This document shows, piece after piece, positions 593-27,192 of a stretch of 31,922 nt of DNA (its first letter is position 1; each line of letters starts with the position of its first letter). This DNA is from Pseudomonadota bacterium. GTDB lineage: Bacteria; Pseudomonadota; Gammaproteobacteria; Burkholderiales; Burkholderiaceae. A program made the position numbers and the translations under genes. The notes below the pieces were generated by a model that saw nothing but the letters and a program-made list of their open reading frames with translations, did not search any database and was not told the DNA's origin. Location of the stretch: positions 1-31,922 of the forward strand of contig JAJXUC010000026.1 of assembly GCA_021783435.1 (NCBI GenBank), written 5' to 3'.

Positions 593-1771
593 GGAAGGTC
601 TGCAAAAGTCAGCCCCATGAGTGGCCCATGCGTTAAAGACAGATGAAACAAATCAGCCTTGCTGCGACCGGATTTGAGCTTGCGACAAAGCGCACGCGCA
701 AGCGGGAATTTCTCGACGAGATGGACCAAGTGATTCCTTGGCCGGAACTGCTCGCCTTGATCGCCCCGTATGCGCCCAGCGGCAAGACCGGGCGTCCGCC
801 GTTCGCCCCCGAGGTCATGCTGCGCATTCACCTACTGCAGCAATTCTTCGGGCACTCCGATCCGGCCATGGAAGAAGCCCTGCACGACATCCCGCTGTAC
901 CGCGAATTTGCCCGGCTCGACGTGGGCATGACGCGCCTGCCCGACGAGAGCACCATCCTGCGGTTTCGCCACCTGCTCGAAGCGCATGACCTGGGCCCGC
1001 AGATCCTCGCCGTCGTCAACGCCCCTCTGTCGCAGCGGGGCCTGCTGCTCAAGACCGGCACCGTGGACGATGCCACGCTGATTGCCGCGCCCAGTTCGAC
1101 CAAGAATGCCCAGGGAGAACGCGACCCCGAGATGCACCAGACGAAGAAGGGAAATCAGTGGCATTTTGGGATGAAAGTGCACATTGGCGTGGATGCTGAC
1201 AGTGGCCTGGTGCACACGGTGGTGGGGACGGCTGCCAACGCCCACGATGTGACGCAGGCCAGCGCCTTGCTCCATGGCGAAGAAAGCGATGTCTTTGCCG
1301 ACTCCGGCTACGGTGGCGTGCACAAACGCGAAGAGGTGATCCAAACCCATCCCGACGTCGCTTGGCATGTGGCCATGATGCCCAGCCACCGCAAGGCGCT
1401 GGACAAGGACACGCCCATGGGGGCGATCATGGACGCTTTGGAGAAAACCAAGGCCAGCATTCGTGCCAAGGTGGAGCACCCGTTTCGGGTGATCAAATGC
1501 CAGTTCGGACATCGCAAGACGCGTTATCGGGGCTTGGCCAAGAACATGAGCCAGTTGCTGGTGATGTTCGCACTGTCGAACCTGTGGATGGTGCGCAAGC
1601 GGATTTTGCAAGGCGCCGTGGGATGAGTGCGTCTGCAACGCGGGCCAAGGCCCGAAAACCGGCCAAATCAGGCCCAAACAGCCCGAAATCGGCCCGATAT
1701 TCAACTCTGATTTCACGATGTGAAGAGGCGCGCATCAACTCGCGTTTCGGCGCTGGTTGTGCAGACCTTCC
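593..1771 (+). mobile_element. IS5-family insertion sequence (IS5 group), complete
   Basis: The element is 1179 bp. Its ends are inverted repeats starting GGAAGGTCTGC on both sides (593-603 and the complement of 1761-1771), with partial matching beyond that. It is flanked by the same 4 bp, CAAG, at 589-592 and 1772-1775. A 4-bp target duplication and ends beginning GGAAGGT are typical of the IS5 group. One full-length transposase gene lies inside. The clean duplication says this is a simple insertion without flanking rearrangement, and it splits a small ORF that resumes at 1776. Confidence 0.9.
643..1626 (+). CDS. IS5-family DDE transposase
   Basis: The 327-residue protein is about the size of the IS5 transposase and catalyses cut-and-paste transposition of its own element. 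The N-terminal part (about residues 45-110) carries the conserved IS5 region with GRPPFAPEVMLRIHLLQQFFG. The catalytic triad is visible as D143 in VDDATLIAAPSSTK, D220 in VFADSGYGG, and E278 in RAKVEHPFRVIKCQFG, with the expected K/R residues following. The ATG at 643 lies about 50 bp inside the left inverted repeat. The frame is uninterrupted and all three acidic residues are present, so the enzyme is probably active. Confidence 0.95.
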   Translation: MKQISLAATGFELATKRTRKREFLDEMDQVIPWPELLALIAPYAPSGKTGRPPFAPEVMLRIHLLQQFFGHSDPAMEEALHDIPLYREFARLDVGMTRLPDESTILRFRHLLEAHDLGPQILAVVNAPLSQRGLLLKTGTVDDATLIAAPSSTKNAQGERDPEMHQTKKGNQWHFGMKVHIGVDADSGLVHTVVGTAANAHDVTQASALLHGEESDVFADSGYGGVHKREEVIQTHPDVAWHVAMMPSHRKALDKDTPMGAIMDALEKTKASIRAKVEHPFRVIKCQFGHRKTRYRGLAKNMSQLLVMFALSNLWMVRKRILQGAVG

Positions 1772-2964: not shown

Positions 2965-4536
2965 ATGGTGCAGCGCACAGAGATTCCGGTGATCGACCTG
3001 TTCGCCGGGCCGGGAGGACTTTGCGAGGGGTTCTCGTCAATCGTGGATGGCAGTGGCTCGCCATGTTTGCCGGTCAAAGTCTCTATCGAAAAGGATGCCA
3101 TCGCCCATCGAACTCTGATGCTCCGGGCGTTGTTCCGCAAGTTTCCGAAAGGCAAGGCCCCGCGCAGCTACTACCAATATGTGCGCGGAGAGATCACCCG
3201 CGAAGCGTTCTTGGCCCTGCCAGACGTTAAGGACAAGGCTGAAGAGGCTGGCAAAGAGGCGCGCTGCGCAGAGCTGGGCGTGACGCCGCAAGAAATCATC
3301 GACGGTTGGATTAGGGAGGCTCTCGCTGGTTGCGAGGACTGGATTCTGATCGGCGGACCACCTTGCCAAGCATACTCGGTCGCCGGGCGTTCTCGCCTGC
3401 GTCCGAAGGATCCCGGGGCCTTCGAGAATGACAAGCGGCATTTCCTCTACGTTGAATACTTGCGGATCATCCAGGAATTCAGTCCCACGGTCTTCGTGAT
3501 GGAAAACGTCAAGGGCATGCTCACCTCCAAGCATGGCGGCACGAAAATTTTCGAGCGTATCTTGGCTGACCTATCCAAGCCGAGGGAAGGGCTTAGCTAC
3601 CAGGTCCGCTCTTTTGTGGTACATGGGGATGTCCTTGATCCCAATGACTATGTGATTGAGGCTGACGACTACGGAGTTCCCCAAAGTCGGCATCGCGTGA
3701 TCTTGTTTGGCATCCGCTCCGATGTGGCTGCGGCGACCCCCGCGCTTGCGCAGAATCCCGAGATGTTCCTGCTGGAAAAGTGCGAACGTAAGGTCGGCGT
3801 CAATGCGGCACTCTCCGGTCTGCCTCCTTTGCGTAGTCGGCTTTCCAGGGAGCAGGACTCGTCAGAGGCGTGGCTCAGCGTGATGAAAAGTGCTCCGAAA
3901 AGTCTGAAGGGCTGGCGCGCGCCGCTTCGCACGGAGATCGAGGCGCAGATGGCAAAGGCGCTCAAGAAGGCCGATAAGCTGAAAACCCCTGGCGCAGCCT
4001 ACATTCCCATGGACGTCAAACCAAGTGGTGAGATGCCAGGCGAGCTCCGTTCCTGGTATCTGGACGAACGCCTGCGCGGCGTACTGCAGCATGAGACTCG
4101 CAAGCACATGCGCTCTGACTTGCATCGCTACTTGTTCGCCACGTGCTTCGTCGAGGCGCAGAAATACGCTCCCAACCTCACCAACTTCCCGCCGAAGCTG
4201 CTACCTGACCATGGGAACGTCGATGATGCGGAAATGCCCTTTAAGGACCGCTTCCGGGTGCAAGTCGGCAACGCTCCTTCATCGACGGTGGTGGCCCACA
4301 TCAAGAAGGATGGCCATTACTACATTCATCCCGACCCGGCCCAATGCCGCAGCCTGACCGTGCGCGAGGCAGCACGGCTGCAAACCTTTCCGGATAACTA
4401 TTTTTTTGAGGGTACGCGCACCGAACAATATGGGCAGATCGGTAACGCTGTTCCGCCGCTGCTGGCTCGAAAGATTGCGCAAGTGATTTATAGGTTCCTG
4501 TCCTCGCCCCGCATGGAGCCCCGCCAAGAGGGCTAG
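2965..4536 (+). CDS. dcm: C5-cytosine-specific DNA methyltransferase
   Basis: Transfers a methyl group from S-adenosylmethionine to C5 of cytosine in a specific DNA sequence (523 residues). Motif I is DLFAGPGG (residues 11-18, AdoMet binding). Motif IV is GGPPCQ with catalytic Cys134. Motif VI is E180-N-V. Motif VIII is Q240-x-R-x-R in DYGVPQSRHRVILFG. A long target-recognition region (about 270-460) follows, then motifs IX/X near the C terminus (REAARLQTFPDNY and GQIGNAVPP). The start chosen is the ATG before VQRTEIPVIDLF; the frame is open 260 bp further upstream, but that part has no conserved content. No clear Shine-Dalgarno is seen beyond a purine-rich AAAAGAAAAA. The gene converges on vsr and shares the CTAG that holds both stop codons. 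It probably marks host DNA for the minus-strand effector operon. Confidence 0.95.
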   Translation: MVQRTEIPVIDLFAGPGGLCEGFSSIVDGSGSPCLPVKVSIEKDAIAHRTLMLRALFRKFPKGKAPRSYYQYVRGEITREAFLALPDVKDKAEEAGKEARCAELGVTPQEIIDGWIREALAGCEDWILIGGPPCQAYSVAGRSRLRPKDPGAFENDKRHFLYVEYLRIIQEFSPTVFVMENVKGMLTSKHGGTKIFERILADLSKPREGLSYQVRSFVVHGDVLDPNDYVIEADDYGVPQSRHRVILFGIRSDVAAATPALAQNPEMFLLEKCERKVGVNAALSGLPPLRSRLSREQDSSEAWLSVMKSAPKSLKGWRAPLRTEIEAQMAKALKKADKLKTPGAAYIPMDVKPSGEMPGELRSWYLDERLRGVLQHETRKHMRSDLHRYLFATCFVEAQKYAPNLTNFPPKLLPDHGNVDDAEMPFKDRFRVQVGNAPSSTVVAHIKKDGHYYIHPDPAQCRSLTVREAARLQTFPDNYFFEGTRTEQYGQIGNAVPPLLARKIAQVIYRFLSSPRMEPRQEG

Positions 4537-4988
4537 ACCAGCGGGCCATTGATTTCTCCGAAAGAGGCTCCGCCTTCAATCCAATCGGATATCCGCGCTC
4601 CAAGCGACTGCAGCGTTTGCGGGTCACGCGTCGCACATTCCCAAACGCACAAGACCCGCCAGCCCATCGAGGCGAGCTCGTCGACGGCGCGCTGGTCGCG
4701 CTCGACATTGCTCTGCAGCTTGTCCTTCCAGAAATCCGTCCGTGTCGAAGGTGTCTTGGAGTATCTGCATCCCAGGTGCGCATGCCAAAAGCAGCCATGC
4801 ACGAAGATGGCGATCTTCCGGCTTGGCATGGTGATGTCAGGCGTGCCGGGCAAATCGCGCCGATGGAGCCTGAAACGAAAGCCGGCGGCGAATAGCAGCC
4901 GCCGGACCAGCATCTCGGGCAGGGAGTTCTTGCTTTTGATGCCGGACATCATCCGGCTGCGTGTGGCGGGCGAAACGATGTCGGGCAT
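4533..4988 (-). CDS. vsr: Very short patch repair endonuclease (Vsr)
   Basis: Vsr nicks DNA 5' of the T in T:G mismatches that arise when 5-methylcytosine deaminates. The 151-residue protein has the full family pattern: SRMMSGIKSKNSLPE with E25, RDLPGTPDI with D51 (catalytic Asp in the E. coli enzyme), FVHGCFWHAH with H64 and H69, the Cys pair C66/C74 of the structural zinc site, and FWKDKLQSNVERD. E. coli Vsr has Thr63 where this has Val63. Length and residue numbering match the family closely. It is the last gene of the minus-strand operon, 18 bp after the AIPR stop, and its stop overlaps that of the methyltransferase. Pairing with a C5 methyltransferase is classic; being at the end of an ATPase/helicase operon is the feature of this system class. 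Confidence 0.95.
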   Translation of the reverse strand: MPDIVSPATRSRMMSGIKSKNSLPEMLVRRLLFAAGFRFRLHRRDLPGTPDITMPSRKIAIFVHGCFWHAHLGCRYSKTPSTRTDFWKDKLQSNVERDQRAVDELASMGWRVLCVWECATRDPQTLQSLGARISDWIEGGASFGEINGPLV

Positions 4989-5006
4989 GAGCTGAACCCT
5001 TGCAGC

Positions 5007-6788
5007 TTACGCGGCCTTGATCTCCGGTATGTTGGATGTGACCTCTGAATAGCTTGCGCTCATGACGGCGATCTTGCACTCGGGCCGTTTGGCCCATTCA
5101 GAGACCATGCGCCCGTTCGCAGTCGTGTGCAACGCCTCGTTTACCTCCTTGGCCCAAGTGGCGATCTGAGAGAGCAACTCCGGCGAGACGGCCTGCTTCG
5201 ACCAGATGCGATCGAGGTCCATGCGCGTGCCCAGCTTCTCGGCCAACACCGAGATTGTGTACGCGGTGACGTTGGCTTGGAAGGCTTGAAACATGGGCCG
5301 CAGCAGCTTTTGCGCGTCGCGGTAAATCTTGGTCTTGGCGATCATGGACTTGAACTCCGCTACGGTAGGAAGCGGGACTTCCTGGCCGTCCGCCGGGGCG
5401 AGTGCTGCCATGAAGCGGTCGAAATTCTTCTGCGAGCCAAGGCTGACGATGTCCGGTTTCTGATCCCATGCGTTGAGATATTTGGCTAGATCGGTCTTTG
5501 TGATCCGTCGCGCGGGAGGGATCGCCTCCTTCAGGGATTTGAGCTTGGCTGTCGTAGTTCCCTCGCGAGCCAGTAGCGTGTTGTAACTGCCAGCGGCGCG
5601 CTCGTAGAACCATTGGCCTACACCATCCGGGCAATAAATTGCGCGCGATAGCTTCTCAATTTCGACATGGAAAGGTCTGTTCGCAGACAGGTCCGATTGG
5701 CGGACCGCGTTCTGACTGTTGGCGAAGCGGGAAATGTCGGACACCAAGGACTCCTCCTTGGTGGAGTCCTGCGCCTTCATGACGATGATTTTCGTCGGCA
5801 CTCTCACTCTGCGCAGGTCCGTCTCAGGGTATTTCTTCTTGGTAAAGTAGAGCGATGCCGTGGTCTGGCCGCCGTTGACGATCTGCAAGCCTTTGAGCCA
5901 TGCGATGCCTGCGGCGCCGTCCCCCGCGTTGCCTAGGTGCATCTCGTCGGCCACGATCACGATACCGTTGTTGTAGGCCATGAAGCGCTCGGGAGCTGTC
6001 CGCAGCGTGGACTGGATGCCCGCGTTGACGCCCTTGCCCTTGACGCTGAGGAACGAACGCACGTTGGCTTCCAGAAGACGCGCGCCGAACTTCTCATAGA
6101 GCAGCCGCAGCGCTTCGCCAGGGACGGCTGTCATCGCGTAGTCGTAGTCATCGTTCTCGCCAGGCACGAAAACGCATGGCAGCGGCGCACCGGAAACTTC
6201 GCTGAAATCGACGACCAGCTCATCGCGCGGCTTGCCTTCGGACCAATGTCGGTGCAGTCGCTCGATGTCCATCACTTCCAAGCGCACAGCTTTTCCGCCG
6301 ATGTCGCGCGTCTTGAAATTCTTGGACTTTGCCACCCGATCGGTGAGGACGTAGACACGTACCTGTTCGAGCTCGTTGTAGATGGCCTGAAGCGTCTCGG
6401 ACAGTGAGCGCACGTCGCTGGACGGGTCGAGCTTCGCGGCCATCTTGCCGTCGGCGCAGAGCGTCAGGAAGCGCAGACACTGCTCGGCGGCTGACTTGGT
6501 TTCCATGTCTGGAATGGGCGTCGGCGCGTCCACGCCGGCATACAGGCTGACGAACAAGTCGAGCTGGTCGCTGTCGTCGGAGATTGAATACCCACTCAGG
6601 CGCAGGTTGGCGTTACCCACCTTGCCTTCGAAGTGGCACTCGACCGGCTCGAATGTCATGCCGATCTCAGACATGTGATCCATCACGATTCCGGCGAAGA
6701 CCAGCTCCTCATATAGTGCGCCATCACGCATCTGCGAACGAACAGTGGCCTGCGTCTCGCGCAGGAAATCCGGCAGGCTTGTATTCAT
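5007..6788 (-). CDS. AIPR-family protein (abortive infection phage resistance)
   Basis: A 593-residue cytoplasmic protein with no signal peptide or membrane segment. The AIPR domain (PF10592) spans about residues 210-520 and is recognised by ANVRSFLSVKGKGVNAGI, RFMAYNNGIVIVADE, LKGLQIVNGGQTTASLY and SLVSDISRFANSQNAV. The biochemical activity of AIPR proteins is not well defined; family members recur in phage-defence operons. Its ATG overlaps the stop of the PD-(D/E)XK gene by ATGA, so translation is coupled. The N-terminal 200 residues probably include a degenerate restriction-endonuclease-like fold (LDLFVSLYAG ... ETKSAAEQC), but I cannot confirm that from sequence alone. Confidence 0.9.
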   Translation of the reverse strand: MNTSLPDFLRETQATVRSQMRDGALYEELVFAGIVMDHMSEIGMTFEPVECHFEGKVGNANLRLSGYSISDDSDQLDLFVSLYAGVDAPTPIPDMETKSAAEQCLRFLTLCADGKMAAKLDPSSDVRSLSETLQAIYNELEQVRVYVLTDRVAKSKNFKTRDIGGKAVRLEVMDIERLHRHWSEGKPRDELVVDFSEVSGAPLPCVFVPGENDDYDYAMTAVPGEALRLLYEKFGARLLEANVRSFLSVKGKGVNAGIQSTLRTAPERFMAYNNGIVIVADEMHLGNAGDGAAGIAWLKGLQIVNGGQTTASLYFTKKKYPETDLRRVRVPTKIIVMKAQDSTKEESLVSDISRFANSQNAVRQSDLSANRPFHVEIEKLSRAIYCPDGVGQWFYERAAGSYNTLLAREGTTTAKLKSLKEAIPPARRITKTDLAKYLNAWDQKPDIVSLGSQKNFDRFMAALAPADGQEVPLPTVAEFKSMIAKTKIYRDAQKLLRPMFQAFQANVTAYTISVLAEKLGTRMDLDRIWSKQAVSPELLSQIATWAKEVNEALHTTANGRMVSEWAKRPECKIAVMSASYSEVTSNIPEIKAA

Positions 6789-7795
6789 ATTGCTCCCAAT
6801 TTCTTCAATGCGTCGACTGCGGCGATGTTGTCGCCCACAGCCTTGTCCAAGTCGATTTCATACGTGGCGCGGCGGATCCCTGAAGGCACGCTGCCAGGGG
6901 TCAACCTGGGAAAGTCTTCCTTCACCTCGATCAGGCGCGTGTCCGCGAGGTTGAACCGCCGAATATACCGACCGGCGTGTGCTTCGAAGTAGCCCGCAGC
7001 AATCAGCCGTTCGCTTAACAGCCGCTCCGCTTCGGCATCGCCCGTGGCTGCCTCGTGCAAAGCCGCGACCAAGTTAGGCAGGGTCTGGCCTGTATCGGTC
7101 TGACGTAGCCGCACACCGGCAAGGAATAGCGGCTGGCGCGTCGAGGCGTCAAGCTGTTCCAACGACCCGATAGTGGCCGGAAACCCTACCGCAGACACCG
7201 TGGCCTTGACTTCCATCGCACCGGTTCCCAGCTTGAAATCCTGGACTTCACCGAGCGGCCCCACCCAGGACTCGACTGCGATGGCCAGCGGCAGGCCCGC
7301 GTTGATGATCGCCCGCAGCAGGGTAAGCTCGCCGACAAGCCCAATTTCGGCCTCCGGGCTCAGCGCCTGCGAGCCTTTGCGCATGAATTCTTGCCAAGCT
7401 CCAATCCGTCCGATCAAGACCCGCAGCAGCTTGGCCTCGCCTGCGCCGGCTGCGGCTGCGTCGTCCAGCGCACCGACCACATCGCAGGCCATGGACGTGA
7501 AGAGCTCGGCACGGCCGGCCGCGCGGCGGGTCAGCGCGAGCCTGAGATGAGCTTCGTTCTCTGGGGCCGCGCGCTCGACGCCGAAACCTTGCCCTTCGGG
7601 CAACTTTTCGGCGAGCGCCAATCGAACGGACGGGAAGCCAAGCACGATCGCTTCGGCGTTGTCGGGCGAGCGTCGGCCAGCCCGCACTTCGATGGGCCCA
7701 GCCGAGGAGAGTGCGATGGTGTGCCAACCGGGCGTGACATCGTTGCCGGACAGAGATGACCAAGCCAGCAGGAACTCTTCACTCGGACGGGCCAT
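6785..7795 (-). CDS. PD-(D/E)XK motif protein (DUF4420-type nuclease)
   Basis: Predicted nuclease of 336 residues. The active-site pattern is visible: E-rich helix VGELTLLRAII, then D186 in VQDFKLG, then E195-V-K197 in AMEVKATVS, followed by GSLEQLD, the order seen in restriction-endonuclease folds. The open frame extends upstream to about 8284, but that is the antisense-free shadow of the Z1 gene. The start chosen is ATG 7795 (MARPSEEFLLAW), which overlaps the Z1 stop by 17 bp. The 3' end overlaps the AIPR start by 4 bp. Together with Z1 and the GHKL ATPase it forms the usual core of this class; it is the best candidate for the DNA-cleaving subunit. Confidence 0.88.
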   Translation of the reverse strand: MARPSEEFLLAWSSLSGNDVTPGWHTIALSSAGPIEVRAGRRSPDNAEAIVLGFPSVRLALAEKLPEGQGFGVERAAPENEAHLRLALTRRAAGRAELFTSMACDVVGALDDAAAAGAGEAKLLRVLIGRIGAWQEFMRKGSQALSPEAEIGLVGELTLLRAIINAGLPLAIAVESWVGPLGEVQDFKLGTGAMEVKATVSAVGFPATIGSLEQLDASTRQPLFLAGVRLRQTDTGQTLPNLVAALHEAATGDAEAERLLSERLIAAGYFEAHAGRYIRRFNLADTRLIEVKEDFPRLTPGSVPSGIRRATYEIDLDKAVGDNIAAVDALKKLGAI

Positions 7796-10688
7796 ATTCC
7801 TGCATCCAGTAGAGGAGGTTGACTTCGTATTCCACGCTGATCGGATGGTCGCTGGCGGGGAACGCGATGGCGAAGGCCATGATCGGCTTGCTCCATCCGG
7901 GGACGATGAGCCTTGTCGGCGTCCCGTCTCTGTAGAAATAGGGCGTGAGCGGGTAGAGCAGAAGCAATCCGCGATCCGCTTCGCCGCCCAGCTTCCCGCG
8001 AGCTTCGCGGATGCCCTTGCCGCTGGGGAAGCTCGGGGGCGTGATGCGGTCTCGGGCGGGATCGGGCTTCCAGGCCGCGCGGGTGAGCGCCAAGGCTTGG
8101 CGCCAAACGTCGTCGCCAAGGTCGATGCCTTCGTCCTTGGGGTCGGTGAGCACGCCGATGGCGAAATTCTTCGGGTCCTGCGTTTCGGGGTCGGTGGGGT
8201 CCTCGGTTTTGCGAATGAAGAAGCTGTTCGACGCGGCTCCCCCAGGGAACGTGTGCACGTCACCGGCGCCATTGCCGCCGCCAAGCAGCGCGACGCTCCA
8301 CAGCTTCAATTGACCCGTCTCGACCATCTTGGCGACGAACTCAGCCAGCATTGCAGCCTTGGCGCTAGTGGCGTTCGGGTGAGTCGCGAAGTCGCCAAGG
8401 AAAGCGAGTACCTTGGACACATCCACGTCTCTCCAAAGACGGGCGCTGGGCCAAGAGTCCTGGTTGCCATCTCGTTCGCATTTCGGCGATTCCTCCCATG
8501 GCCACCCGAGACTGGCGATCAAGGCGTCCGTCGCCTCGAGGTTCTGCTTCTGGACCTTCGCATCACGATGGAAAAGAATGGTTTGCGGGCGAGTTCCGCT
8601 GTAGGTTAGCGACAGCGTCTGCGCGTTGCGCATCTTCAAAGGCGAGGTGACGGTGAGTACTTCATGAGACATCACCTTGAGCCCGTACTGCTCTGGCGTC
8701 AGCTTGGCCTCGGCCATGAAGTCGAACTCTTCCCGCAGCTCCTCGGATGCGTCGGCGATATGGCCAAACCATTTCACTAGATCCGGCGAGGTGTAGAGGC
8801 GGCAGAGATCCAGGTATCCGGGGCGATAGCCGAACCAGCGGCCCATCTGCATAAGCGTGTCATACATTTTCGTGGTGCGTACGAAGTAGCTCACGCACAG
8901 GCCCTCGAGCGTCAGGCCCCGTGCGAGCTTATCGCCGCCGATAGCGATCACCTTCAGCGTGGCGCCACGTGTTGCATAGTCAAGTGCGTCCTTCGCAGTG
9001 CCGTTGATCGAGCGGACCTCGATGTCGTCTAGGACATCGGGCAAAGTTGCGAGGATTTGGTCCCAACTTGGCATCTCCGGCGGGCGCTCCTCGGGAGGTG
9101 AGAGCTCGGCGACTTGGTCGCGAATTGGCAGGAAATCCTCCTCCCATAGTTTGCGCAACTTAGCCAGCAGATTGTCCGCGTCGTTGCCGCGCGTGATCTT
9201 CTGGCGCATGTGGCGCACCGCTTTCTCGACCTGCTCTCGAACATGGTTCTGCACATCCACGTATCGGGTGACGTGAATCAGCATAGAGCTGTGCTCGTCG
9301 CCTTGGCCGCGCAGATCGCGCGACGCGCAAGCAAGCACAAAAGAGCCGACGGCTTCTTCCAGCGATGGCGGAATGATTTCCTGGCCGTTGTAGGTCGGAA
9401 CGTGGGTCTTCTTGTGCTTGGGCGGCATCCACCCCGAATCCGATTCCGGGGCGTAGTGGTCCAGGATGCTCCGGTATAGGGGGAGAGCGTCCTTTCGGCC
9501 CTCTTTGGTCATCCTGCCGAACATGCGGGCCGGGCCTATATAGTTGGACGGCGCGGCCAAGTTGATGATGAAGGAGCGAGGGAACAGGTCCGGGCCTTCC
9601 TTGGCTGTCGCGCCCTTGTGGTGGATGAAGATGTTGGCGAAGGGCGTGGCCGTGTAGCCCACGTAAACCTTGCGTGTGAAGGCGTGCAGGACTTGGCGAA
9701 TGAGGCTATTGATGGCTTTGGGCTGATGTTCCTCGTCCGGCGTTCCGTCCTCGCTGAACATCTGTTCGCCCGTGTCGACTGAGGCGTTGTCCGCCTCGTC
9801 GTCGATCATCAACAGCGGCAGCTTAGTCACCAGTTTTCGGGCATCGCTTGCGTCCGCGCTGTCGGCCACGCGTGTCTGAATCCAATGCAGTAGTGCGGTG
9901 AGGACCGATTTCTGTTTCTTGACGACGAACAACCATGGCCGCTCTTCGGGCGAAATTCCATGAAAGTGCTTGGCGATGCCTTGGTTGAAGTCACCGTTCT
10001 CTGCGCGTGTGGTAGCGGAGTTGGTCTTCAAGTCCTCACCGAATTCGGCCACGCCGATAGGTATGCCTGGGTCGCGGTCGATAGTCGTCTCGTAGCCTAG
10101 GAAGCTCTCCTCGAGCCGCATCTGGGTCTGCGAGCGCAGGTTGTTGTGCGTGCCGGCGAGCACGATGATGATCTTGTAACCCGCGTCGGCTGCCTTGCAG
10201 ATTAGCCCGGAGTAGTTGCCGGTCTTGCCGGACTGCACATGGCCGACGACAAGACCGCGTCGATCCCAGGGATCCGCCCGCTGTGGGTCTTCCAACAAAC
10301 TCAGGATGTCGTCGGTTGCCTCGTTGATGCCTTCGACCACCGTGTCGGAGAGTTTGGATTCAAGGTAGTCGCGGTAGCGTCGCCAGTAGTGCCAATCGCG
10401 CTTGCGGGCGGCCGTCAGCCAATCGAAGTGACCCGTGTCGTCCTTGAGTGTGGTGATCTTGCCGATCCAGTGGCTGAAGCGCTGGATCAACGTGATGACC
10501 GCCTTGCCTTGATCCACGGCGTGCGGCGAGTCGCCCGCAAACATTGTCGTGGCCAATTTCACTTTCTCAGCAATTAAAGCCGGGGTGATGTTGGACTTGT
10601 CTTTCTCGGCTTTTACCAACCGCTGTGCGGTAGCGATGACGTTTTCAAGCTGCTCTGCTTGAGCGGCGGCCTCTTCTGCTGGGGTCAT
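7779..10688 (-). CDS. Z1 domain-containing helicase/ATPase
   Basis: A 969-residue P-loop NTPase of the Z1 family (PF10593), related to superfamily 2 helicases and predicted to translocate on or remodel DNA. Walker A is GHVQSGKT with K155. The Walker B/DEAD equivalent is LLMIDDEADNASVD (about 290-302). Motif III-like is VGYTATPFAN. The second RecA-like lobe has GGDKLARGLTLEGL and the arginine-finger motif QMGRWFGYRPGY (about 610-622). All motifs are intact. Length is normal for the family. The start ATG overlaps the end of the GHKL ATPase gene by ATGA and the 3' end overlaps the nuclease gene, so four core proteins are made from one coupled message. Confidence 0.93.
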   Translation of the reverse strand: MTPAEEAAAQAEQLENVIATAQRLVKAEKDKSNITPALIAEKVKLATTMFAGDSPHAVDQGKAVITLIQRFSHWIGKITTLKDDTGHFDWLTAARKRDWHYWRRYRDYLESKLSDTVVEGINEATDDILSLLEDPQRADPWDRRGLVVGHVQSGKTGNYSGLICKAADAGYKIIIVLAGTHNNLRSQTQMRLEESFLGYETTIDRDPGIPIGVAEFGEDLKTNSATTRAENGDFNQGIAKHFHGISPEERPWLFVVKKQKSVLTALLHWIQTRVADSADASDARKLVTKLPLLMIDDEADNASVDTGEQMFSEDGTPDEEHQPKAINSLIRQVLHAFTRKVYVGYTATPFANIFIHHKGATAKEGPDLFPRSFIINLAAPSNYIGPARMFGRMTKEGRKDALPLYRSILDHYAPESDSGWMPPKHKKTHVPTYNGQEIIPPSLEEAVGSFVLACASRDLRGQGDEHSSMLIHVTRYVDVQNHVREQVEKAVRHMRQKITRGNDADNLLAKLRKLWEEDFLPIRDQVAELSPPEERPPEMPSWDQILATLPDVLDDIEVRSINGTAKDALDYATRGATLKVIAIGGDKLARGLTLEGLCVSYFVRTTKMYDTLMQMGRWFGYRPGYLDLCRLYTSPDLVKWFGHIADASEELREEFDFMAEAKLTPEQYGLKVMSHEVLTVTSPLKMRNAQTLSLTYSGTRPQTILFHRDAKVQKQNLEATDALIASLGWPWEESPKCERDGNQDSWPSARLWRDVDVSKVLAFLGDFATHPNATSAKAAMLAEFVAKMVETGQLKLWSVALLGGGNGAGDVHTFPGGAASNSFFIRKTEDPTDPETQDPKNFAIGVLTDPKDEGIDLGDDVWRQALALTRAAWKPDPARDRITPPSFPSGKGIREARGKLGGEADRGLLLLYPLTPYFYRDGTPTRLIVPGWSKPIMAFAIAFPASDHPISVEYEVNLLYWMQEYGPSE

Positions 10689-12178
10689 TGTTTCATCCCA
10701 AGTTTGGTGACCAGCGTTGGGTATTTCTGAAATGGCTCGATTCTGATTATCGACTTGCGCGCTTCTTCGACGCTCAGGCCCTTGCGCTCGACTAGGTCGT
10801 TGAAGAGCACGCTTGCGACCTCGATCACGGCGGCATTGGGCTCACCCTCAAAGCCGATGCGTGGCGTTTCCTTGTTCTCGGCGGTGTCCAGCCAGATGCG
10901 CTGTACCGGGACCGTTTCTTCGATTACCCGAAGCATCGACTTTAAGAGAGGCTGCAGTTCGCCCGCTTGCTCCATGACCGCAGCTACTGAGGGGTGCGAT
11001 CCGTCGATCCGATACCGCAAACCGGATTTGAGCCTCTCCACCCGCCAAGCTTGTTCGATCGGTTGGTTGCCGTTGGCGGGAGCGGGTGACCCGCGGTATG
11101 CGAACACGCGTCGGGCCCGCTCGCGCGTGTTCTCGGCCAAGAGGGTGAGCCAGGAGCGCAGCGACACAGGTGGACGTGCCGTCGATTTGCGGACATCAAT
11201 CTTCCAGTCGGCGTCTGCGGTGTTGGGGATGTCCAGGCGAATGCGCGCCAGTCGATGGGCTTCCTCCCGATTCCACGCGCGCGAGTTGCCCAAGCCTAGC
11301 CATCCCCCCGCGACGAGGAGGCGCTCATTGCGGTAGACATAGAAGCCTTGTTGAGCCGTCCAGCCAGCCGGCCCGGCGTTCTCTTCGAACTCAGCAGGAC
11401 TCAGCTTGTCACGGTGGGGCAAAACATGGCACTGGACCGACACGATCCCACAGTCGGTCTGGTGGTTAGTGACAGGTGATGTCCAAGGCTTGGCGGGGTG
11501 GCCTGACATGAAGGGGTCCCATGGCGCGACAGCGCGGCCATTGAGCAGCAGCCTGAGCCGTGGGCGAGGACCTTGCAGCAGGCGGTGAAACACCATCGCC
11601 AAGTGCGATTCGACGTTGTCGATGAGGTCGTTGAAGTTGTCTGAATTGTATTCGGCGGTGACAATGCGGTCGAGTGTCTCCCAGAGCACGAGTGTCCCCG
11701 CCTTGTTGCCGTCGAGGTCCGCGAGGTGCACCTGGGAGCCTTCGGCTGGACCTTCGAAGAGCAGCCACTCATTGTCAGGGTTGGTCGTCAGCTCGTCGAG
11801 GTCCCATCGCAGGCAGGCATGGGCACCATCTTTGACGCTGGCGACCGTGAGGCGGCGGCACTGCGAAAACGAGGCGGTCTTCAATCCCATACCGAAGCGG
11901 CCAAGGTCGTGCGCACCGCGCTTGGCCAAGGGGTTCTTGTCACCCAGCCGCATGGCCCCTTCGAGCTCCGCATCGCTCATCCCCCGCCCGTTGTCGAGGA
12001 TCAGCACGCGGCTGTTGGCCCCGTCCCATTTGAAGTTGATGCGCACCTCCTCTGCGCTGGCGGAAATGCTGTTGTCCACTATGTCGGCAATGGCTGCTGC
12101 CGTCGAGTAGCCCAGGCCTCGCAGGGATTCAAGCATTGCCATGGCACGCGGGGGCGCCTTGCGGGTTCGTTGAGTCAT
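10685..12178 (-). CDS. GHKL ATPase (HATPase_c_3, MORC/MutL-like)
   Basis: A 497-residue ATPase of the GHKL fold. The N box is IADIVDNSISA (D35, N36), motif G1 is DNGRGM (residues 62-67), the G2 glycine lid is GRFGMGLKTASFS, and GTLVLWE gives the G3-like segment. MORC/MutL-type ATPases close as ATP-dependent clamps around DNA; a sensor or clamp role in the system is inferred. I chose ATG 12178; a TTG two codons upstream (12184) is an alternative, and the ribosome site is unclear. It ends in an ATGA overlap with Z1 and begins 68 bp after the sigma-factor stop. That gap is too short to show a separate promoter by eye. Confidence 0.9.
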   Translation of the reverse strand: MTQRTRKAPPRAMAMLESLRGLGYSTAAAIADIVDNSISASAEEVRINFKWDGANSRVLILDNGRGMSDAELEGAMRLGDKNPLAKRGAHDLGRFGMGLKTASFSQCRRLTVASVKDGAHACLRWDLDELTTNPDNEWLLFEGPAEGSQVHLADLDGNKAGTLVLWETLDRIVTAEYNSDNFNDLIDNVESHLAMVFHRLLQGPRPRLRLLLNGRAVAPWDPFMSGHPAKPWTSPVTNHQTDCGIVSVQCHVLPHRDKLSPAEFEENAGPAGWTAQQGFYVYRNERLLVAGGWLGLGNSRAWNREEAHRLARIRLDIPNTADADWKIDVRKSTARPPVSLRSWLTLLAENTRERARRVFAYRGSPAPANGNQPIEQAWRVERLKSGLRYRIDGSHPSVAAVMEQAGELQPLLKSMLRVIEETVPVQRIWLDTAENKETPRIGFEGEPNAAVIEVASVLFNDLVERKGLSVEEARKSIIRIEPFQKYPTLVTKLGMKQ

Positions 12179-12246
12179 TTCCAAAAGTCATTCCATTGCC
12201 AGAACGCAAATCCAAAGTCAGCCAGCCTGCGGGCCGGTCATCAGGT

Positions 12247-14715
12247 TTATCCAGGAGACTCACCCAAGTGTGGGCCCGACGGCTCTGTTCGGTCGTCGCC
12301 GACAGTGGAGCCTAGCGGCGCTGCGTTTGCCAAGTGCCGCTCGATCTCCGAAAGTTTCGCAGCGCCAACCGAGTTGCTTTCCTCGCGGGCGATCCGGGGA
12401 GCTAATTCCTGGTGGCACGTTTGGGGCTCGTCAATCCGTTCGGCTGTCCCGGTTTCGGCCCTGTCTGCTGCATTCGCCTCAGCGACAGCGCCAAGGGCTA
12501 AACGAGCGAAGGGCTCCGCTCTCGCAGGATGCTTGAGCTTCCTGATTGCTTTGGCCTCGATCTGCCTGATTCTCTCTCGGGTGACGGCATAGCGCTGGCC
12601 AATCTCTTCCAGGGTAAGGGCATCACCAACTCCAATGCCGAAGCGCAACCTGAGAATCTGCTCTTCCTTGATTGGCAACGTGGAGAGCAGGTCTCTAACT
12701 GCCACGCACAATTCCGCCGAAGCGAGGGAGTCTGCCGGGTCGGGCTCGGTGAAGGCTTCGCAGGCGTCGATGGCGATCAACTCGTCGACCGGCAATTCAT
12801 GAATTGGCAACGGTTCAGGTGTCAGGCGCAGGAGTGCAGCCACCTTGTGAGCGGGCATTTCCATTCGCGTGGCGATCTCTTCGAGCCTCGGCATGCGGCC
12901 AAAGGCTGACTCGAAGGCCTGCGTCTCGAGTCGAAGGCGCTGGGATCTCTGGTAGACATGGGCCGGAACCCGAATGGTCCTGGCCTTGTCGGCGATATGG
13001 CGCCCGATCTGCTGCCGTATCCACCAAGTAGCGTAGGTGGAGAACTTGAAGCCGCGGCGCCAATCGAAGCGATCGACGGCTTTGAGCAGTCCGATGTTCC
13101 CTTCCTGAGTCAGGTCGTCCAACCGTTCGCCGCTGTATCGGTATTTCTTGGCGAGGTGAAAGGCGAGTTTCAAATTAGCGGCCGCCATGTGGTCTCGTGC
13201 CTGCCTGTATGCCGCAATCGCCAGCCGATAGCAGGCAGCGGCCTGCGACGCATCCTCGATGCCGCCCAGTTCTAGCAGCATGTGGCGATTGAGGCGCAAC
13301 GCCACCAGTGCTTCCCGGACCGCGCGAAAGGTGGGCCCATGTGGATCAGCGGCAACTGGAAGCGCCCCCAACTGGTCGAGCGCGTCGGTGAAGCCGACGT
13401 CGCCGCCACGCTCGACCAGCGTGTCGGCAGACACCTCGCCAATTCGATCCGGTCCTTCCTCTTCCTCATCGGCCCCGGGTGTTTCGGCTCCTCGGTCGTC
13501 GGCGGAAGCCGATTCGATGTCCGGTTCGGTGTCTTCGAGGGACATCCAGGCTAGCGGGCGCAACCCAGCTTTGACTTCGGCTCCGGCTGCGAGCGTCCAC
13601 GCGACGCCTTGTGGCCAAGCCGCCAATGCATCGTGCGCAGCTTCTAGGGCGGTTTCCATAGCTTGGGCCAGACTGACCTCTTCCTGGGCCGAGATGAGAC
13701 GCAGTCCCTGGAATTCGCGCTGATACATCCGCAGCGGCTCGTAGCGCGTGGAGGCAGCGCTGTCGATGGCGGTGAGCGCTTGGTCTAGGGCATCTTCCTC
13801 GTCGGGCGTCTCGTCGGGTTTGATGAACACCTTGAAGCTTTCGGCGGCGCTGGAGTACTCAAAGCGCTCATCGACCTCGGCACCAAGGTCGTTGACAACC
13901 CTGACCAGCAACGCTTCAGCCTCTGGATTGGAGGAACGATCGTCGTTGGTCGAAAGCTCCTGCACATCCAGGCTGGGCACGCTTCCTTCACGGAGCGCTC
14001 GCAGTAAGAGCAAGCGCAATTGTGTGCGAGCGTCGTCATCTGCGGCGCGCGAAAGCTGCAGGGACTGCTCGGGCAAGTAGGCGTCGATTTCGTCCCAATT
14101 CGCCGAGGAGTCGGTGGGGTTGTGCGCGGAGATGGCATTCTGGATCGCGCTCGCTGCTCGCAGGATCGACAAATCAGCCTCCGGGGGAGGCGGCTCTTCT
14201 TCGGCTTCCCATCCAGAAAGGTCGAACTCCGATAATTCTGATACTTCATCAGGTTCGGTGGCCAAGCTCACGGCATCCGAAATCGCTGGCTCGTCCATTG
14301 AGCCTTCTAACGATGCGAGCGCGCCAACCGATAGAGATGCTTGATGGAAGCTGCCGGATGCCCGCTCAGAGGCTAGTTTGAGTAGCGGAGCAGGATGGAT
14401 GGGTGGCATGGCTTGGATGGAGCCAAGGATCGCTGCGGCTTCGCGCGCGCCGGCGGCGATGGCTATCGCGAGTGCCGTCCTGCCTGATGGATCGAGCAGA
14501 CCATCGTCAACCCCGGCATCCAGGAGGATTTTGCAGATGGAGAGCTTGTTCCGTGCCGCGGCAAGCATAAGAGGCGTCATGCCGCTGCTGTCCCGGGCGT
14601 TGAGGTCGTCGCCACGATCGACGTGGATTTGAACGGCGCTTTCAACGCCAGCCATGACGGCCATTCGCAGGAAGCGGCTCATGGGTTGGGGGGCAGCGAA
14701 GTTCGCCTTACTCAC
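12247..14715 (-). CDS. Sigma-70 family factor with N-terminal ankyrin repeats
   Basis: An 822-residue fusion. Residues about 15-100 form two to three ankyrin repeats ([39 protein letters not shown]). An acidic low-complexity linker follows. Sigma region 1.2 begins near Y325 ([21 protein letters not shown]). Then comes a non-conserved acidic insert (about 365-505). Region 2 starts at about 510 with [22 protein letters not shown] and the promoter-melting segment [17 protein letters not shown]. Region 3 follows ([16 protein letters not shown]), then the region 4 HTH at about 698-727 ([20 protein letters not shown]). An unusual ~90-residue tail follows. Regions 2.4 and 4.2 are close to RpoD, so recognition of TTGACA/TATAAT-like promoters is likely. 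The start is GTG 14715 with AGAAGG upstream. It heads the defence operon on the same strand, suggesting a dedicated transcription factor or a phage sensor. Confidence 0.9.
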
Positions 14716-15236
14716 CCGCGTGCCCTTCTTCTGTCCCCACCGATGAAGAATCCTTCGGTTGCTGGATGTTCATTCCAGGAAATCGCAAAAAAGGTGCATG
14801 TCATGGCAAAGCTGTTCGTCTTTCCCTGTGGCCATTTTGGCTCACTTTAAGCCCTTCCGTTACAAATTCTACCGGGGCACTCAGTGCCAGTGCTGCCGGC
14901 TACTCAGATCGGCGTTTCTGTCCAATTAACCTGCCCACTTGGTGATCATGACTGGCTTTCAACTTTAGGAGCCACAGTTCATTATCAATTCGGCTCGCAA
15001 ACTAGCTATACCGAGGCAGTGCAGGTGGACAATCTGGCGTAAGGCACGCCTGCGGTTAACAACTGCTGTCCGCGCAAGACGATGAATGTTGGCTCGTCCC
15101 AACTCGGCAGCAGAGCCGCCTTGCATATGACGCTGACCGAATCGATCGAACTTCCGATGTCTATCAGCGAGCCCATTCAAGGACGTGCTGACCAAGCTCC
15201 CGACCTGTCCTGATAGTGGACTGGGGTGTGGGCGCT
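14716..15236. other. Intergenic region between the two immunity loci
   Basis: No supportable gene is seen. The first 150 bases upstream of the sigma factor should hold the promoter of the minus-strand operon, but I could not pick a confident -35/-10 pair. A 15-codon open frame at 14802 (MAKLFVFPCGHFGSL) is too short to call. The minus-strand frame at 14965-15504 runs through the repeat copy and has no recognisable domain. This looks like a recombination-prone spacer. Confidence 0.45.
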
Positions 15237-16005: not shown

Positions 16006-16731
16006 ATGCCCTCCCTGACTTCCCTGCACCGCCTTGCCACCGGGTTCGCCCGGTGGGTGGCCTCTTTCGGGTTTGCCATTCTTGGAATTGGCGCTGCGCT
16101 TGCGGCCACGCCACAGATTTACAACGGGCCGGGAGACGGCGCCGGGGTCCGACTGATTCTGCATCCGCAGTCGGCCACGCACGGTAAAGCCGAGTTGCAG
16201 TTCTGCGATGTTGGCGGCACCCCGGGGTGCGGCTCCAATGGCAGCGGAACCTATACCCGGGCGGGCGATAAGCTCACCCTGTTCTTTACCAACAGGGACA
16301 GCCGGTGCATCTGGTCACTCCATTCCTTGGCCGACGGTAAGCTGTTCCTCGACCAGTCCGGCACTGCGAGTGCCTGCCAGCCCTATCACGGCGCCGCCTT
16401 TGGCTGGATGGATGGCGTGAAGTTCACCCCGATGGCGACTGCAGCCGCTTCTACCCACTCCGGCGACGGCCCCGCCTTTGACTGCGCCAAAGCCACGGCC
16501 CCCGCCGACAAGCTGGTTTGCGGCAATGCCGGACTCTCCGCGATGGACCGTCAGGTGGCGACGGCGTATCACGCCGCCCTGCACCAGGCACCCAATCCAC
16601 AGGTCCAGGAGCAAATCAAGCATGCCCAGACCGCGTGGGTGCGCACCAAGATGCGCTGCCGCGACGTGGCCTGCCTGCAATCGGTCTACCGCGAGCGGCT
16701 CGGGGTGCTGGAACACGCGGCAACGCCATGA
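16006..16731 (+). CDS. LprI-like (DUF1311) periplasmic protein
   Basis: A 241-residue exported protein. The signal peptide is residues 1-33 (cleavage ALA/AT). The C-terminal part, about 159-237, matches the LprI/DUF1311 family, known for lysozyme inhibition in some members: it starts FDCAKATAPADKLVCGNAGLS, has the helix MDRQVATAYHAAL, and ends CRDVACLQSVYRERLGVL with the paired Cys residues. The middle (50-140) has more Cys pairs (FCDVGGTPGCG) and is not assigned. AGGAG lies 9 bp before the ATG. It sits 97 bp upstream of the TIR gene on the same strand; a functional link to that gene is not shown by the sequence. Confidence 0.75.
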   Translation: MPSLTSLHRLATGFARWVASFGFAILGIGAALAATPQIYNGPGDGAGVRLILHPQSATHGKAELQFCDVGGTPGCGSNGSGTYTRAGDKLTLFFTNRDSRCIWSLHSLADGKLFLDQSGTASACQPYHGAAFGWMDGVKFTPMATAAASTHSGDGPAFDCAKATAPADKLVCGNAGLSAMDRQVATAYHAALHQAPNPQVQEQIKHAQTAWVRTKMRCRDVACLQSVYRERLGVLEHAATP

Positions 16732-16828
16732 ACTCCGGCGCCTTGCGGCGCCAGCGCCTGATGACTCTTGCCCCCGCATTCTGAGCCCGTGCCGCACGAA
16801 CTTCGCCCCACTTTTTGAAAGCCATGCC

Positions 16829-19800
16829 GTGAACCTGTTCTTTTCCTACCCGCATGATGCAAACAGCGCGCTGGTACAACGCTTGAAGGGCGACCTCGAG
16901 GCGCGCGGTCATACCGTGTGGTTCGATGGCGAAAAGATCAATAGCGGCGACGAATGGCGCCGCCGCATTACCGAAGGCATTCTGAACAGCGACGGCGCCG
17001 TCGCCTTTCTGTCCAAGCACTCGGTGCGCGATCCCGGCGTGTGCCTCAACGAAATCGCCATCGCCCTGGCCGAGAAGGGGGATGAAGCGCTGGTGACCGT
17101 GCTGGTCGAACCGGAGAAAGAGGTGTCCGCCCCCGTCACGGTCAGCCACATCCAGTGGCTGAACATGGCCGATTGGCAAGACCATGCCGACGACGACGGC
17201 TGGTACCGCACCCGCGTCGACCAGCTCATCGACGTCATCGAACACCCGGCCAGCGCCCACCGCAACGCGGAACTTGAATTCCTGCGCAACGCGCTCGACC
17301 CCTTGCGCTTCAACGCCGACATGGCGCCGCACCTGCTGCGCTACACCGGCCGTCGGTGTCTGCAGTCGCGCTACAAAAAGTGGCTGGCCGACCCCAAGGG
17401 CAGCCGCGTGTTCCGCATCGAGGGCGGCCCCGGCATGGGCAAGACCGCCATCGCCAGTCATCTGGCCCATGCCGCCAAAAGCAGCGTGCTTGTCGTCTTT
17501 CTGTGCGACTACCGCCGCAGCGAAACCCGCAACTCTCTGCGCTTCATCCAGACCCTGGCCTATCAGCTCGCCACCCGTCTGCCCGACTACCGCGCCCGGC
17601 TGCTCCGGGCGCCCATCATCGCCCGCACCGACGGCAAGACGCGCATCTCCACGGAGGGGCTGTCCGACGCAGACCTCTGGTCGGCGCTGCTGGCCGAGCC
17701 CATGGCCGGCGTCGGCAAGGACGGTCTCATCGGCCGCCAGGCCATGACCCTCGTGGTAGACGGCCTGGACGAAGCCACCGAGGGCGGCCGCAACGACATC
17801 GTGAGGCTGCTGGCCGAGAAACACTCCTCGCTGCCCCCCTGGGTGCGCGTGGTACTCACCGGCCGCCCCGATCCGGAAATCCGCCAGCGCCTGCGCGCCT
17901 ACCAGCCCCTGGTCCTCGCCGCCGACGACCCGCACAACCTCGCCGACCTGCGCCGCTACATCAAGCCATGGCTGAAGGAACGGGTTGCGGCCGGCAAGCT
18001 GCCCGCCTGGCAACAGAGCGCCGTCACCCAGGCCTTGCTTGACAAGTGCGAGGGCGCTTTTTTGTACCTCGTGCTCGTGCGCGAGGAGGTCGAGGCGGGC
18101 AGCCTGGATCTCAGCCGCCTGGAGTCCCTCCCCAACGGCCTGGACGCCATCTACCTGCGCAACTTCGAGCGCAGGTTCCCAGACACCGATTCAGGCAGCC
18201 CCTGGGCCACCTTGGCCAAGCCCCTGCTCGCCCTGGTCATGGCCAGCCCGGAACCCCTGCCCCTGGGTTTGGCCCGCGAACTGCTGGCCTGGAACACCGC
18301 AGAGGACGGCGAAGAACGCGAGGCCACTGCGCTGCGCAGCCTGGGCAGCTTGCTCGTGCAACGCAGCGGCGCAAGCAGTCACCCCGTAAGCAGCAACACC
18401 GCCGACAGCACCCTCTCCCTGTTCCACAAGAGCAGCCGGGAGTGGCTGGCCGACCCTGAACGTGCCGGGGAGTATTTTGTCAGCACCCGAAACGCGCTGC
18501 CCAAGCTGACCGAGGTCGTCTGGCGAGACTACCCGCAGGGCGAACCCGCTGACGGTTACGCCTGGCTGGTCCTGCCCGAACTGCTTCCCCAGATGCACCG
18601 CCAGCAACCGCAAGCGCTGGAGCGCATCCTGGGAGAGCCCAGCGAACAAACGAGTGACCGCCTTTTCAGGCTTGCCGATAGCCTTGAGCCCAAATTGCGC
18701 TATGCCGAGGCTGCGGGCATGTTCGCCCTGCAAGTGGCCTATGCACGCCGCCTGGCCGAGGCCGCCCCGGAGAACGCGGACTTTCAGCGTGACCTCAGCG
18801 TCGGTCTGGAGCGATTGGGCAACACCGAGCGCTACCTCTGCCACAACGAGAGCGCGCTTAAGCACTATCAGGACAGCCACGCCATCGCCCAGCGTCTGGC
18901 CGAGGCCGCCCCGGAGAACGCGGGTTTTCAGCGCGACCTCAGCGTCACTCTGGATCGATTGGGCGATCTCGAGCGCGTCCTCGGCAAAAGGGACGCCGCG
19001 CTGCGACACTATCAAGACAGCTTTGACATCCGTCAGCGCTTGGCCGGATCTGTCGTGCATGGCACAGAGTTTCTGCGCGGCATCAGCATCAGTCTGAACA
19101 AACTGGGCGACATCGAGCGTGAGCTCGGCCAAACCGAGGCCGCGCTGCAGCACTATCAGGAAGACTACGTCATTGCCCGGGCGCTGACCGAGGCTCATCC
19201 GGAAAACATGGAGTTTCAGCGCGACCTCAGCGTCAGTCTGGTCAGGCTGGGCGACCTCGAGCGCTCCTTCCACTTCAATCAGGTGCGCCTTGGTGACCTC
19301 AAGCGCGCCATCAGCCATTGGGGTGCCGCCTTGCAGTACTATCAAGAAAGCTACGACATCACCCAGCGTCTGGCAGAGGCCGCCCCGGAAAAGGCGGATT
19401 TTCAGAGCGCCCTCTGCGTCAGTCTGGAGCGTCTGGGCAACATCGAGCTCGACCTCGGCGACACCGACCATGCGCTTCAGTACTATCAGGAGAGCCACGC
19501 CATCCGCCAGCGTCTGGCCGACGCCGCCCCGGCGAATGCGGGTTTTCAGCGCGCCCTCGGCGTCAGTCTGAACAAGCTGGGCAACATCAAGCGCGAGCTC
19601 GGCCAAAGGGACGCCGCCCTGCAATACTATCAAGAGAGCCACGCCATCCGCCAGCGAATGGCCGAGGCTGCCCCAGAGAACGCGGAGTTTCAGCATGACC
19701 TTGGCGTCTCATTCGCCTTGATTGCTGAGGCCTCACAGCCTGAACAGGCCCGTGCCTGGTGGCAACGGTGTCACATGCAGTTCCAGAAGATGCAGGCCAA

Positions 19801-19882: not shown

Positions 19883-20126
19883 GGATGAACTGTCTTGAAC
19901 CCCGACTTTGCAGCAGGATGACTCCAATGAACCCACCCCTGATGCGAACCGGGCGCTTGAGCGCCTGGGTCGGCGAGTCCGCCTCACGCACCGTGGTCAC
20001 CTCCGTATCGTTCCACTCCAACCGTCCTGCCTAGAGCCGTTCGGGGTGGCCAGCGGGGGCACATCTCCTTCTTTGAAAAACAACCGTTTGATCATCCCGG
20101 TTAAAAACTTTTGGGCTGCAGAAAAG

Positions 20127-24898: not shown

Positions 24899-25287
24899 GG
24901 CTGACCTCCTGCACCGATCAGCGCCAGGCGCAACTGACGCACCTCGGACGCCAACTGGCGGAGCAGATCGGCATCGACCTGCACGCTCTCGCCGAGGTTG
25001 GCATGCCAGGCCAACTGATTGAGGTTGGCCGACAGCCGGGCCAGTTCGGCATACGCCGCGCGGTTGATTGCCGGCACGGGAGGTGACGGCAGGCGGCGGG
25101 ACAGGGCGGCCTGGCGCAACCACTGCGCCGGCGTCACGCCCATGTGCGCGGCTTTGTCTTTCAGCGCGGCGTACTCCGACGGCGACACGCGCACGCCGAG
25201 AGTGATGGCGCGTACCGCAGCGGGGTCGCCCTTGGGGCGGCCGCCCTTGCGCCGACGCGACAGCGGTGGAAGGGTCTCGGGCATCAT
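24895..25287 (-). CDS. mobC: Mobilisation accessory protein MobC
   Basis: About 130 residues. Accessory protein that binds oriT next to the nick site and helps the relaxase open the DNA. The basic N terminus (SRRRKGGRPKGDP) precedes a ribbon-helix-helix-like part (ITLGVRVSPSEYAALKDKAAHMGVTPAQWLRQAAL), and the family's typical C-terminal segment INRAAYAELARLSANLNQLAWHAN follows (PF05713). Two ATGs (25287 and 25284) follow GGGAGGG; the second has better spacing. The stop overlaps mobA by ATGA. The untranslated DNA directly upstream is the expected place for oriT. Confidence 0.88.
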   Translation of the reverse strand: MMPETLPPLSRRRKGGRPKGDPAAVRAITLGVRVSPSEYAALKDKAAHMGVTPAQWLRQAALSRRLPSPPVPAINRAAYAELARLSANLNQLAWHANLGESVQVDADLLRQLASEVRQLRLALIGAGGQP

Positions 25288-25948: not shown

Positions 25949-26001
25949 AAGCATGGGCCGAAGCATGGGCCCGTTCTTTTGTCTGAAAGAGGGCACGCAT
26001 G

Positions 26002-27177: not shown

Positions 27178-27192
27178 GCGGCCGTTTTTGGC

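Follow-up and report, generated by a model that had tools for sequence, protein, structure and literature searches.

The sigma module of MzaA appears exchangeable for RpoD modules: a diverged MZA locus of the Burkholderiaceae and its relatives

MZA (mzaABCDE) is an already known anti-phage system: it is represented by models in PADLOC (2023; PDLC02203-02207) and NCBIfam (NF041931-NF041935), and a passage in PMC9523054 attributes a 'validated mzaABCDE system' to Gao 2020 and labels mzaA 'a sigma factor'. We analyzed a 31,922-nucleotide stretch of DNA from a bacterium of the Burkholderiaceae (contig JAJXUC010000026.1; 'the window') in which the best PADLOC and NCBIfam matches of the first five genes of an operon are the MzaA-MzaE models, respectively; by gene content and order, the operon is a diverged member of MZA and not an NCBI equivalog. 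These models and the passage in PMC9523054 contradict the original prediction that a sigma factor had not been described as a core component, and on the same grounds we rejected a new kind of system; the window locus is a further member of a known one. Our search of the open-licence literature, outside which most subscription papers lie, found no account of the role of the MZA sigma factor. What appears to be new here is that the sigma module of MzaA is exchangeable for RpoD modules while the N-terminal half and the operon partner are kept; this makes it possible to test whether the match to RpoD serves phage sensing, fit to RNA polymerase (RNAP) or promoter choice, and we regard the exchange as a useful new lead.

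For comparison, we scanned a profile from 20 aligned MzaC proteins against one genome per species and obtained at least 592 stretches (at least 555 relatives); the best 80 MzaC relatives (49-85% identity) form the set of neighborhoods, in which neighbors were called by phmmer with the seven window proteins against open frames of at least 60 codons. When the sigma modules of MzaA are compared with the RpoDs of the host genomes, the closest match of some is an RpoD and not another MzaA. The careful maximum-likelihood tree contains 37 RpoDs and 27 of 71 MzaA rows (245 columns, 200 bootstraps); the MzaA rows were chosen by hand after a first tree had been seen, that is, long branches were shed and rows near RpoD were kept. 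RpoDs with an internal stop (L135), second copies (L136 and L137), an incomplete sequence (L171) and weaker or uncertain candidates (L175-L177) were omitted from the sigma trees. MzaA is monophyletic in 0% of the 200 bootstrap trees; the approximately unbiased (AU) test, for groups also chosen after a first tree had been seen, rejects a single MzaA clade (p = 0.006) and a single clade of five replaced rows (p = 0.002). The module of L001 (Azonexaceae) groups with the RpoDs of Azonexus and Rhodocyclales genomes (support 92/87), the modules of L012 and L015 (Gallionellaceae) group with the RpoDs of their respective genomes and of a third genome (95/98), and the modules of L068 and L094 fall inside a group made up of Comamonadaceae RpoDs and the RpoD of one close genome (100/99). 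A wider FastTree has 340 rows, 303 of them MzaA (some identical, and up to 116 retrieved in a search that started from a replaced case); it needs five changes, at least four forced by its starred branches, and places L001, L068, L094, P0267, P0279 and P0289 inside the RpoD ancestor node.

The junctions in individual proteins agree with these trees. Residues 344-849 of the L001 MzaA are 73.9% identical to Azonexus RpoD (152-668), and residues 34-369 align over their full length with the MzaA of L021 and L022 (47%); residues 184-369 match the MzaA of L036 at 60% (the aligned N-terminus of L036 lacks the ankyrin part, so the comparison is restricted to this segment). The MzaB of L001 is also nearest to that of L036 (82%), the sigma module of which is only 41% identical to the RpoD of its host. 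In P0279, sigma2-4 that is 95% identical to Nitrosovibrio RpoD is joined to an MZA-type N-terminus, and sigma2-4 of P0267 and P0289 is 90% and 91% identical to an RpoD; the N-termini of these three, which are known as proteins alone and came from a search seeded with the N-terminus of L012, are 53-67% identical to that of L012. The NCBI RpoD cut-off (555 bits) is exceeded by L001 (740), L012 (692), L068 (614) and P0279 (784), and also by the MzaA of L070 (570), L015 (660), L034 (562) and L049 (588; joined pieces). Among the 303 modules, a non-random sample, identity to the best of the 37 RpoDs reaches 60% in 54 and 70% in 45. As judged from these comparisons, the MzaA sigma module is not monophyletic and is nested within particular RpoD lineages in L001 and L068/L094 and, less firmly, in L012/L015.

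In the window, mzaA (12247-14715, minus strand) encodes a protein of 822 residues from a GTG start that is identified by its Pfam domains, the PADLOC MzaA model (261 bits) and an RpoD match (247 bits). Its N-terminal half contains ankyrin repeats (14-100) and a conserved FDLxGW...LPE segment (161-224); these are followed by sigma1.1-like (226-300), sigma1.2, sigma2 (498-583), sigma3 and sigma4 (669-735) regions. In the AlphaFold2 model (mean predicted local distance difference test (pLDDT) 77.5, predicted TM-score (pTM) 0.51) the domains are confident and their mutual arrangement is not; the 50 PDB matches in the Foldseek list are sigma70-RNAP structures, almost exclusively from E. coli, with TM-scores that are low because the domains float in the model. 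In an alignment of 52 MzaA proteins that includes the window (the others are 24-61% identical to it), the equivalents of E. coli sigma70 D403, Q406, W434, R441, R584, E585, R586, R588 and Q589 are present in all 52, that of Q437 in 51 and that of W433 in 47; T440 varies (G in 19, T in 17, S in 8). We take these positions to be residues for core binding or for -10/-35 recognition, so that, in the alignment, MzaA retains the core-binding and promoter-reading residues of RpoD. Likewise, the pattern of the helix that reads the -35 box, [TS]RER[IV]RQIE, occurs in 287 of the 303 MzaA modules and in 36 of the 37 RpoDs. The non-conserved region and the finger each have a mean pairwise identity of 22% in the 52 aligned proteins. 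Two very long MzaA-like proteins, P0266 and P0291 (1204 and 1446 residues), match several ankyrin Pfam models in addition to the sigma domains.

The sigma gene is a recurrent neighbor: an MzaA-type sigma is encoded directly upstream of mzaB and on the same strand in 68 of the 80 loci, so we rejected a sigma gene found only here, and the neighborhood check establishes that it is not unique to the window. Where the contig extends at least 2.6 kb upstream of mzaB, the count is 62 of 67, which bears out the proposal that the sigma factor, the AIPR protein and the nuclease are regular members of one system. Five loci with such room, all from Pseudomonas or Stutzerimonas (L037, L039, L048, L053 and L055), lack the sigma gene; a methyltransferase and Vsr occupy its slot, and in the MzaB tree the five group together as a single nested clade. 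Relatives also occur on 18 viral contigs: 13 at 34-42% identity lack mzaA and carry B-E up to the limits of their contigs, most with a methyltransferase or Vsr; two (L097 and L098, 25-27%) have C alone among the core genes; and three are at 53-54%, that is, L084 and L094 with mzaA and L081, which is cut short and lies on the contig of L033. In genome samples around the relatives, which overlap and include the genomes on which they were centered, MzaA is found at E <= 1e-80 in 15 of 399, 1 of 369, 5 of 294 and 2 of 247 genomes. The 37 plasmid records that match MzaC are all below 60% identity, and a search of E. coli genomes gave no near match.

The 13 viral-contig relatives and the five Pseudomonas/Stutzerimonas loci without mzaA speak for mzaA as a passive passenger of a GHKL-helicase-nuclease system, as do the neighborhoods of GHKL, helicase, nuclease, DCM and Vsr described in PMC2292703, the text of which does not contain the word sigma. 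However, in the MzaB tree (87 rows) the presence of the sigma gene reaches deep and stays stable, with two changes compared with a mean of 15.8 after shuffling. Furthermore, mzaA is the most divergent operon partner (median pairwise identities in 68 rows: A 30, B 59, C 56, D 41 and E 59%), yet its key residues are fixed while it diverges more than B, C and E; we consider a passenger quite improbable. Passages of PMC10924106 count mzaA with the defence genes that mutate at high frequency and report that, although selection on it is negative overall, its sigma70 non-essential domain is under positive selection. MzaC is also exchanged separately: between L001 and L063, C is 82-85% and A only 32-33% identical, and between L017 and L023, C is 56-58% identical but A is 54-56% and E 85-87%.

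The main sigma factor is a common target of phage takeover proteins. The reading that we prefer, though we put it somewhat short of an even chance, is that MzaA would mimic RpoD and that this mimicry would let the MzaBCDE nuclease machine sense or reach phage transcription. The mimicry could take three forms, that is, a decoy for phage proteins that attack RNAP or sigma, a promoter recruiter or an activator of the operon. As a decoy, MzaA would carry an integrated copy of the housekeeping sigma within a defence protein, repeatedly renewed from bacterial RpoD genes; phage proteins attacking the host sigma70 or RNAP would bind MzaA and trip the MzaBCDE effector. This form is possible, although we hold it with more doubt than mimicry in general. 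That RpoD-type modules have taken the place of the sigma module speaks for mimicry or sensing and against a dedicated alternative sigma that has a promoter code to itself; renewal of the module and its rapid divergence favor the decoy form, whereas the invariant DNA-reading residues favor the recruiter and activator forms.

Several points weigh against mimicry of RpoD maintained by renewal. The invariant DNA-reading residues exceed the needs of a passive bait, and the exchange could simply refit MzaA to the RNAP of a new host after transfer. The L068/L094 modules come from a donor lineage (Comamonadaceae) that differs from the lineage of the host, Limnobacter, the RpoD of which falls elsewhere in the tree. 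In the 340-row tree, L012 and L015 lie just outside the RpoD ancestor node, which weakens their case. Most modules (249 of 303) are less than 60% identical to the best of the 37 RpoDs; in this they resemble the window module (46% to the best RpoD), and the window MzaA scores 318 bits against the NCBI RpoD model, below its cut-off. The window module is old and diverged and is not a recent capture, and because most modules are old like it, a fresh capture of RpoD is evidently not required for function. The five sigma-less loci described above belong here as well.

An activator form would have MzaA bind RNAP and drive the mza promoter, with the ankyrin part regulating an inducible immunity. Besides the retained RNAP-binding and promoter-reading residues, it can draw on a conserved element, GTAGAATTTGTAA, with a -10-like TAGAAT (14860-14872, minus strand), that occurs once in the window, approximately 145 nt upstream of the mzaA GTG. 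In the clade of the window its consensus is CTGTAGAATTTGTAA; its flanks are diverged, and in most cases 140-240 nt separate it from the downstream codon of residue 19 of MzaA. GTAGAATT is the most shared exact 8-mer, in 10 of 67 upstream regions compared with 5-6 reached by six shuffles, and 8- and 9-mers with one mismatch are not above shuffles in these regions. The element is present in 11 of the 65 loci that have mzaA (A+) and at least 400 nt upstream of it. Of 15 further loci, which were retrieved through their proteins alone, 12 also have it (p at most 0.01 against mononucleotide shuffles), although the upstream DNA of some, such as L100 and L117, recurs in the first set. In a search of 10 genomes, the exact 13-mer GTAGAATTTGTAA occurs once in each of three (G001, G008 and G009), always and solely before mzaA. 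Partial or distant matches in L011, L032, L042 and L064 were left uncounted (GTAGAAT lies approximately 308 and 456 nt out in L032 and L064), and the site in L103 is farther out, 300 nt from the anchor. The element is absent from L007, L008, L011 and L044 in the wider clade of the window and from L107, L111 and L112 among the further loci; the upstream DNA of L107 is the same as that of L011.

However, no conserved -35 box accompanies the element despite the invariant -35-reading residues of MzaA, and an ordinary sigma70 promoter accounts for the element equally well. A genome scan allowing one mismatch is uninformative (10 matches compared with 8 for a reversed-pattern control), and replacement by RpoD-type modules would wipe out a private promoter code. 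Of the 65 A+ loci, 54 lack the element; in 13, a gene for a WYL-domain protein lies upstream of mzaA instead (partial in two, on the same strand in 12), and no locus has both. Because these upstream regulatory features differ while the sigma gene stays, the sigma factor as the sole switch of the operon is mildly disfavored, and we judge the activator form to be rather unlikely. The WYL gene is directly upstream of mzaA in L001 (4989-5972), L018, L022, L050, L059, L074-L076, L079 and L084; the assignment is from Pfam for L001 and by similarity for the other loci, and we take the regulator to be possibly of the BrxR/CapW kind. As for the leader after the element, the RNAalifold consensus structure is 0 for data and shuffles alike and hence uninformative; a GCC-N5-GGC inverted repeat is present in 9 of 22 sequences, in 8 at approximately the same place, a count that has no control. 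Upstream words in Alphaproteobacteria and three Lysobacteraceae exceed shuffles, but the rows are close relatives; in other clades the top words are at or barely over the level of shuffles, that is, no shared motif was found.

The window also encodes a C5 cytosine DNA methyltransferase (2965-4536, plus strand; TIGR00675, 145 bits, above the cut-off of 100.65) convergent with vsr (very-short-patch mismatch endonuclease; 4533-4988, minus strand; TIGR00632, 151 bits, above the cut-off of 97.85). Vsr is a repair enzyme for deaminated 5-methylcytosine. We counted both in the 48 fully flanked loci, that is, those whose contigs extend 6 kb or more beyond B on the upstream side and 4 kb or more beyond E on the downstream side: a C5 methyltransferase like that of the window (E <= 1e-5) is present in 41, Vsr in 44 and both in 39; a second methyltransferase family in four more (L009, L042, L044 and L067) raises the methyltransferase total to 45. 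The linked DNA methyltransferase that is a feature of restriction-modification is thus present in the window and in 45 of 48 loci. The three without one in the flank are L010, L036 and L041, although the L010 contig holds one approximately 8 kb past mzaE, just beyond the flank. Because PF00145 has only 1-5 matches per whole genome in 40 host genomes of 2.8-8.3 Mb (one gene may give two), the linkage to mza is far above chance, even though the position, strand and family of the methyltransferase differ among loci with similar MzaC. A passage in PMC10687267 describes four Listeria strains with a 'methyltransferase-encoding mza' and GCAGC/GCWGC modification.

The linked methyltransferase and Vsr look like self-modification. 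The original prediction called the system modification-dependent; we rejected that reading, because we found no sign of recognition of modified DNA (no modified-base reader is so named among the Pfam, PADLOC and NCBIfam matches listed for the window proteins) and the methyltransferase linkage gives it no support. A modification-protected system, as in restriction-modification, would fit the gene content better. The linkage and the invariant -10 and -35 reading residues also suit a recruiter form, which overlaps with the mimic reading: within the RNAP holoenzyme, MzaA would direct MzaBCDE to promoters of the sigma70 type on phage DNA that enters the cell unmethylated and so couple cleavage to transcription. 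The position of mzaA before B-E on the same strand is consistent with this, but nothing indicates contact of MzaA with B-E, and a recruiter must spare host promoters in the loci where no methyltransferase was found nearby; we consider it unlikely.

All seven genes are intact and laid out as the original prediction had them. Downstream of mzaA on the minus strand lie mzaB (10685-12178; a MutL/MORC-like GHKL ATPase; PADLOC, 666 bits), mzaC (7779-10688; NCBIfam, 1172 bits), mzaD (6785-7795; a PD-(D/E)XK nuclease with DUF4420) and mzaE (5007-6788; an AIPR family protein; AIPR, 311 bits; PADLOC, 733 bits). The ATG of mzaD is at 7795, and the longer open frame to 8284 is a mechanical extension over mzaC. 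Compared with the NCBI equivalog cut-offs, MzaA-MzaE score 508/800, 771/850, 1172/1500, 357/420 and 936/1050 bits, that is, all five are below. In the Massilia/Duganella group, a second AIPR protein follows mzaE (L041, L058, L060 and L065; checked with Pfam for L058).

A DDE transposase (643-1626, plus strand) adjoins the methyltransferase end of the system. On the other side are a TIR-NACHT-TPR protein of the STAND type (16478-19882, plus strand) and an open frame of 716 residues (19908-22058, plus strand) with no Pfam or PADLOC match; together they are probably a second defence locus in the same element as the mza operon. A relaxase fused to a RepB primase, a helix-turn-helix protein, tRNA-Arg, tRNA-Pro and a phage-type integrase follow (22742-28642), a set suggestive of an integrative mobilizable element located next to tRNA genes. 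An Rfam search of the window found the two tRNAs and nothing else.

The nearest relative of the locus is MZA itself: all five genes are present on one strand in the order of the model letters with the sigma factor first, and the window member differs in being diverged and in having the methyltransferase and Vsr attached. The MORC/paraMORC restriction-modification neighborhoods of PMC2292703 share the GHKL ATPase, superfamily II (SFII) helicase, restriction endonuclease (RE)-fold nuclease, DCM and Vsr, but the main text of that paper mentions AIPR once and sigma not at all. A further published system is reported to be approximately 20% identical to mzaBCDE and to have mzaA in only a few cases, whereas in the loci studied here mzaA is regular. 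With RpoD (a group 1 sigma70), MzaA shares the sigma1.1-like, 1.2, 2, 3 and 4 regions and the core-binding and -10/-35 residues; it differs in its N-terminal ankyrin repeats and 161-224 segment and in its variable non-conserved region and finger. If the decoy form is correct, MzaA would act as an immune sensor with which a bacterium keeps watch over its main sigma factor and, as such, would be a bacterial counterpart of the integrated-decoy domains of plant immune receptors.

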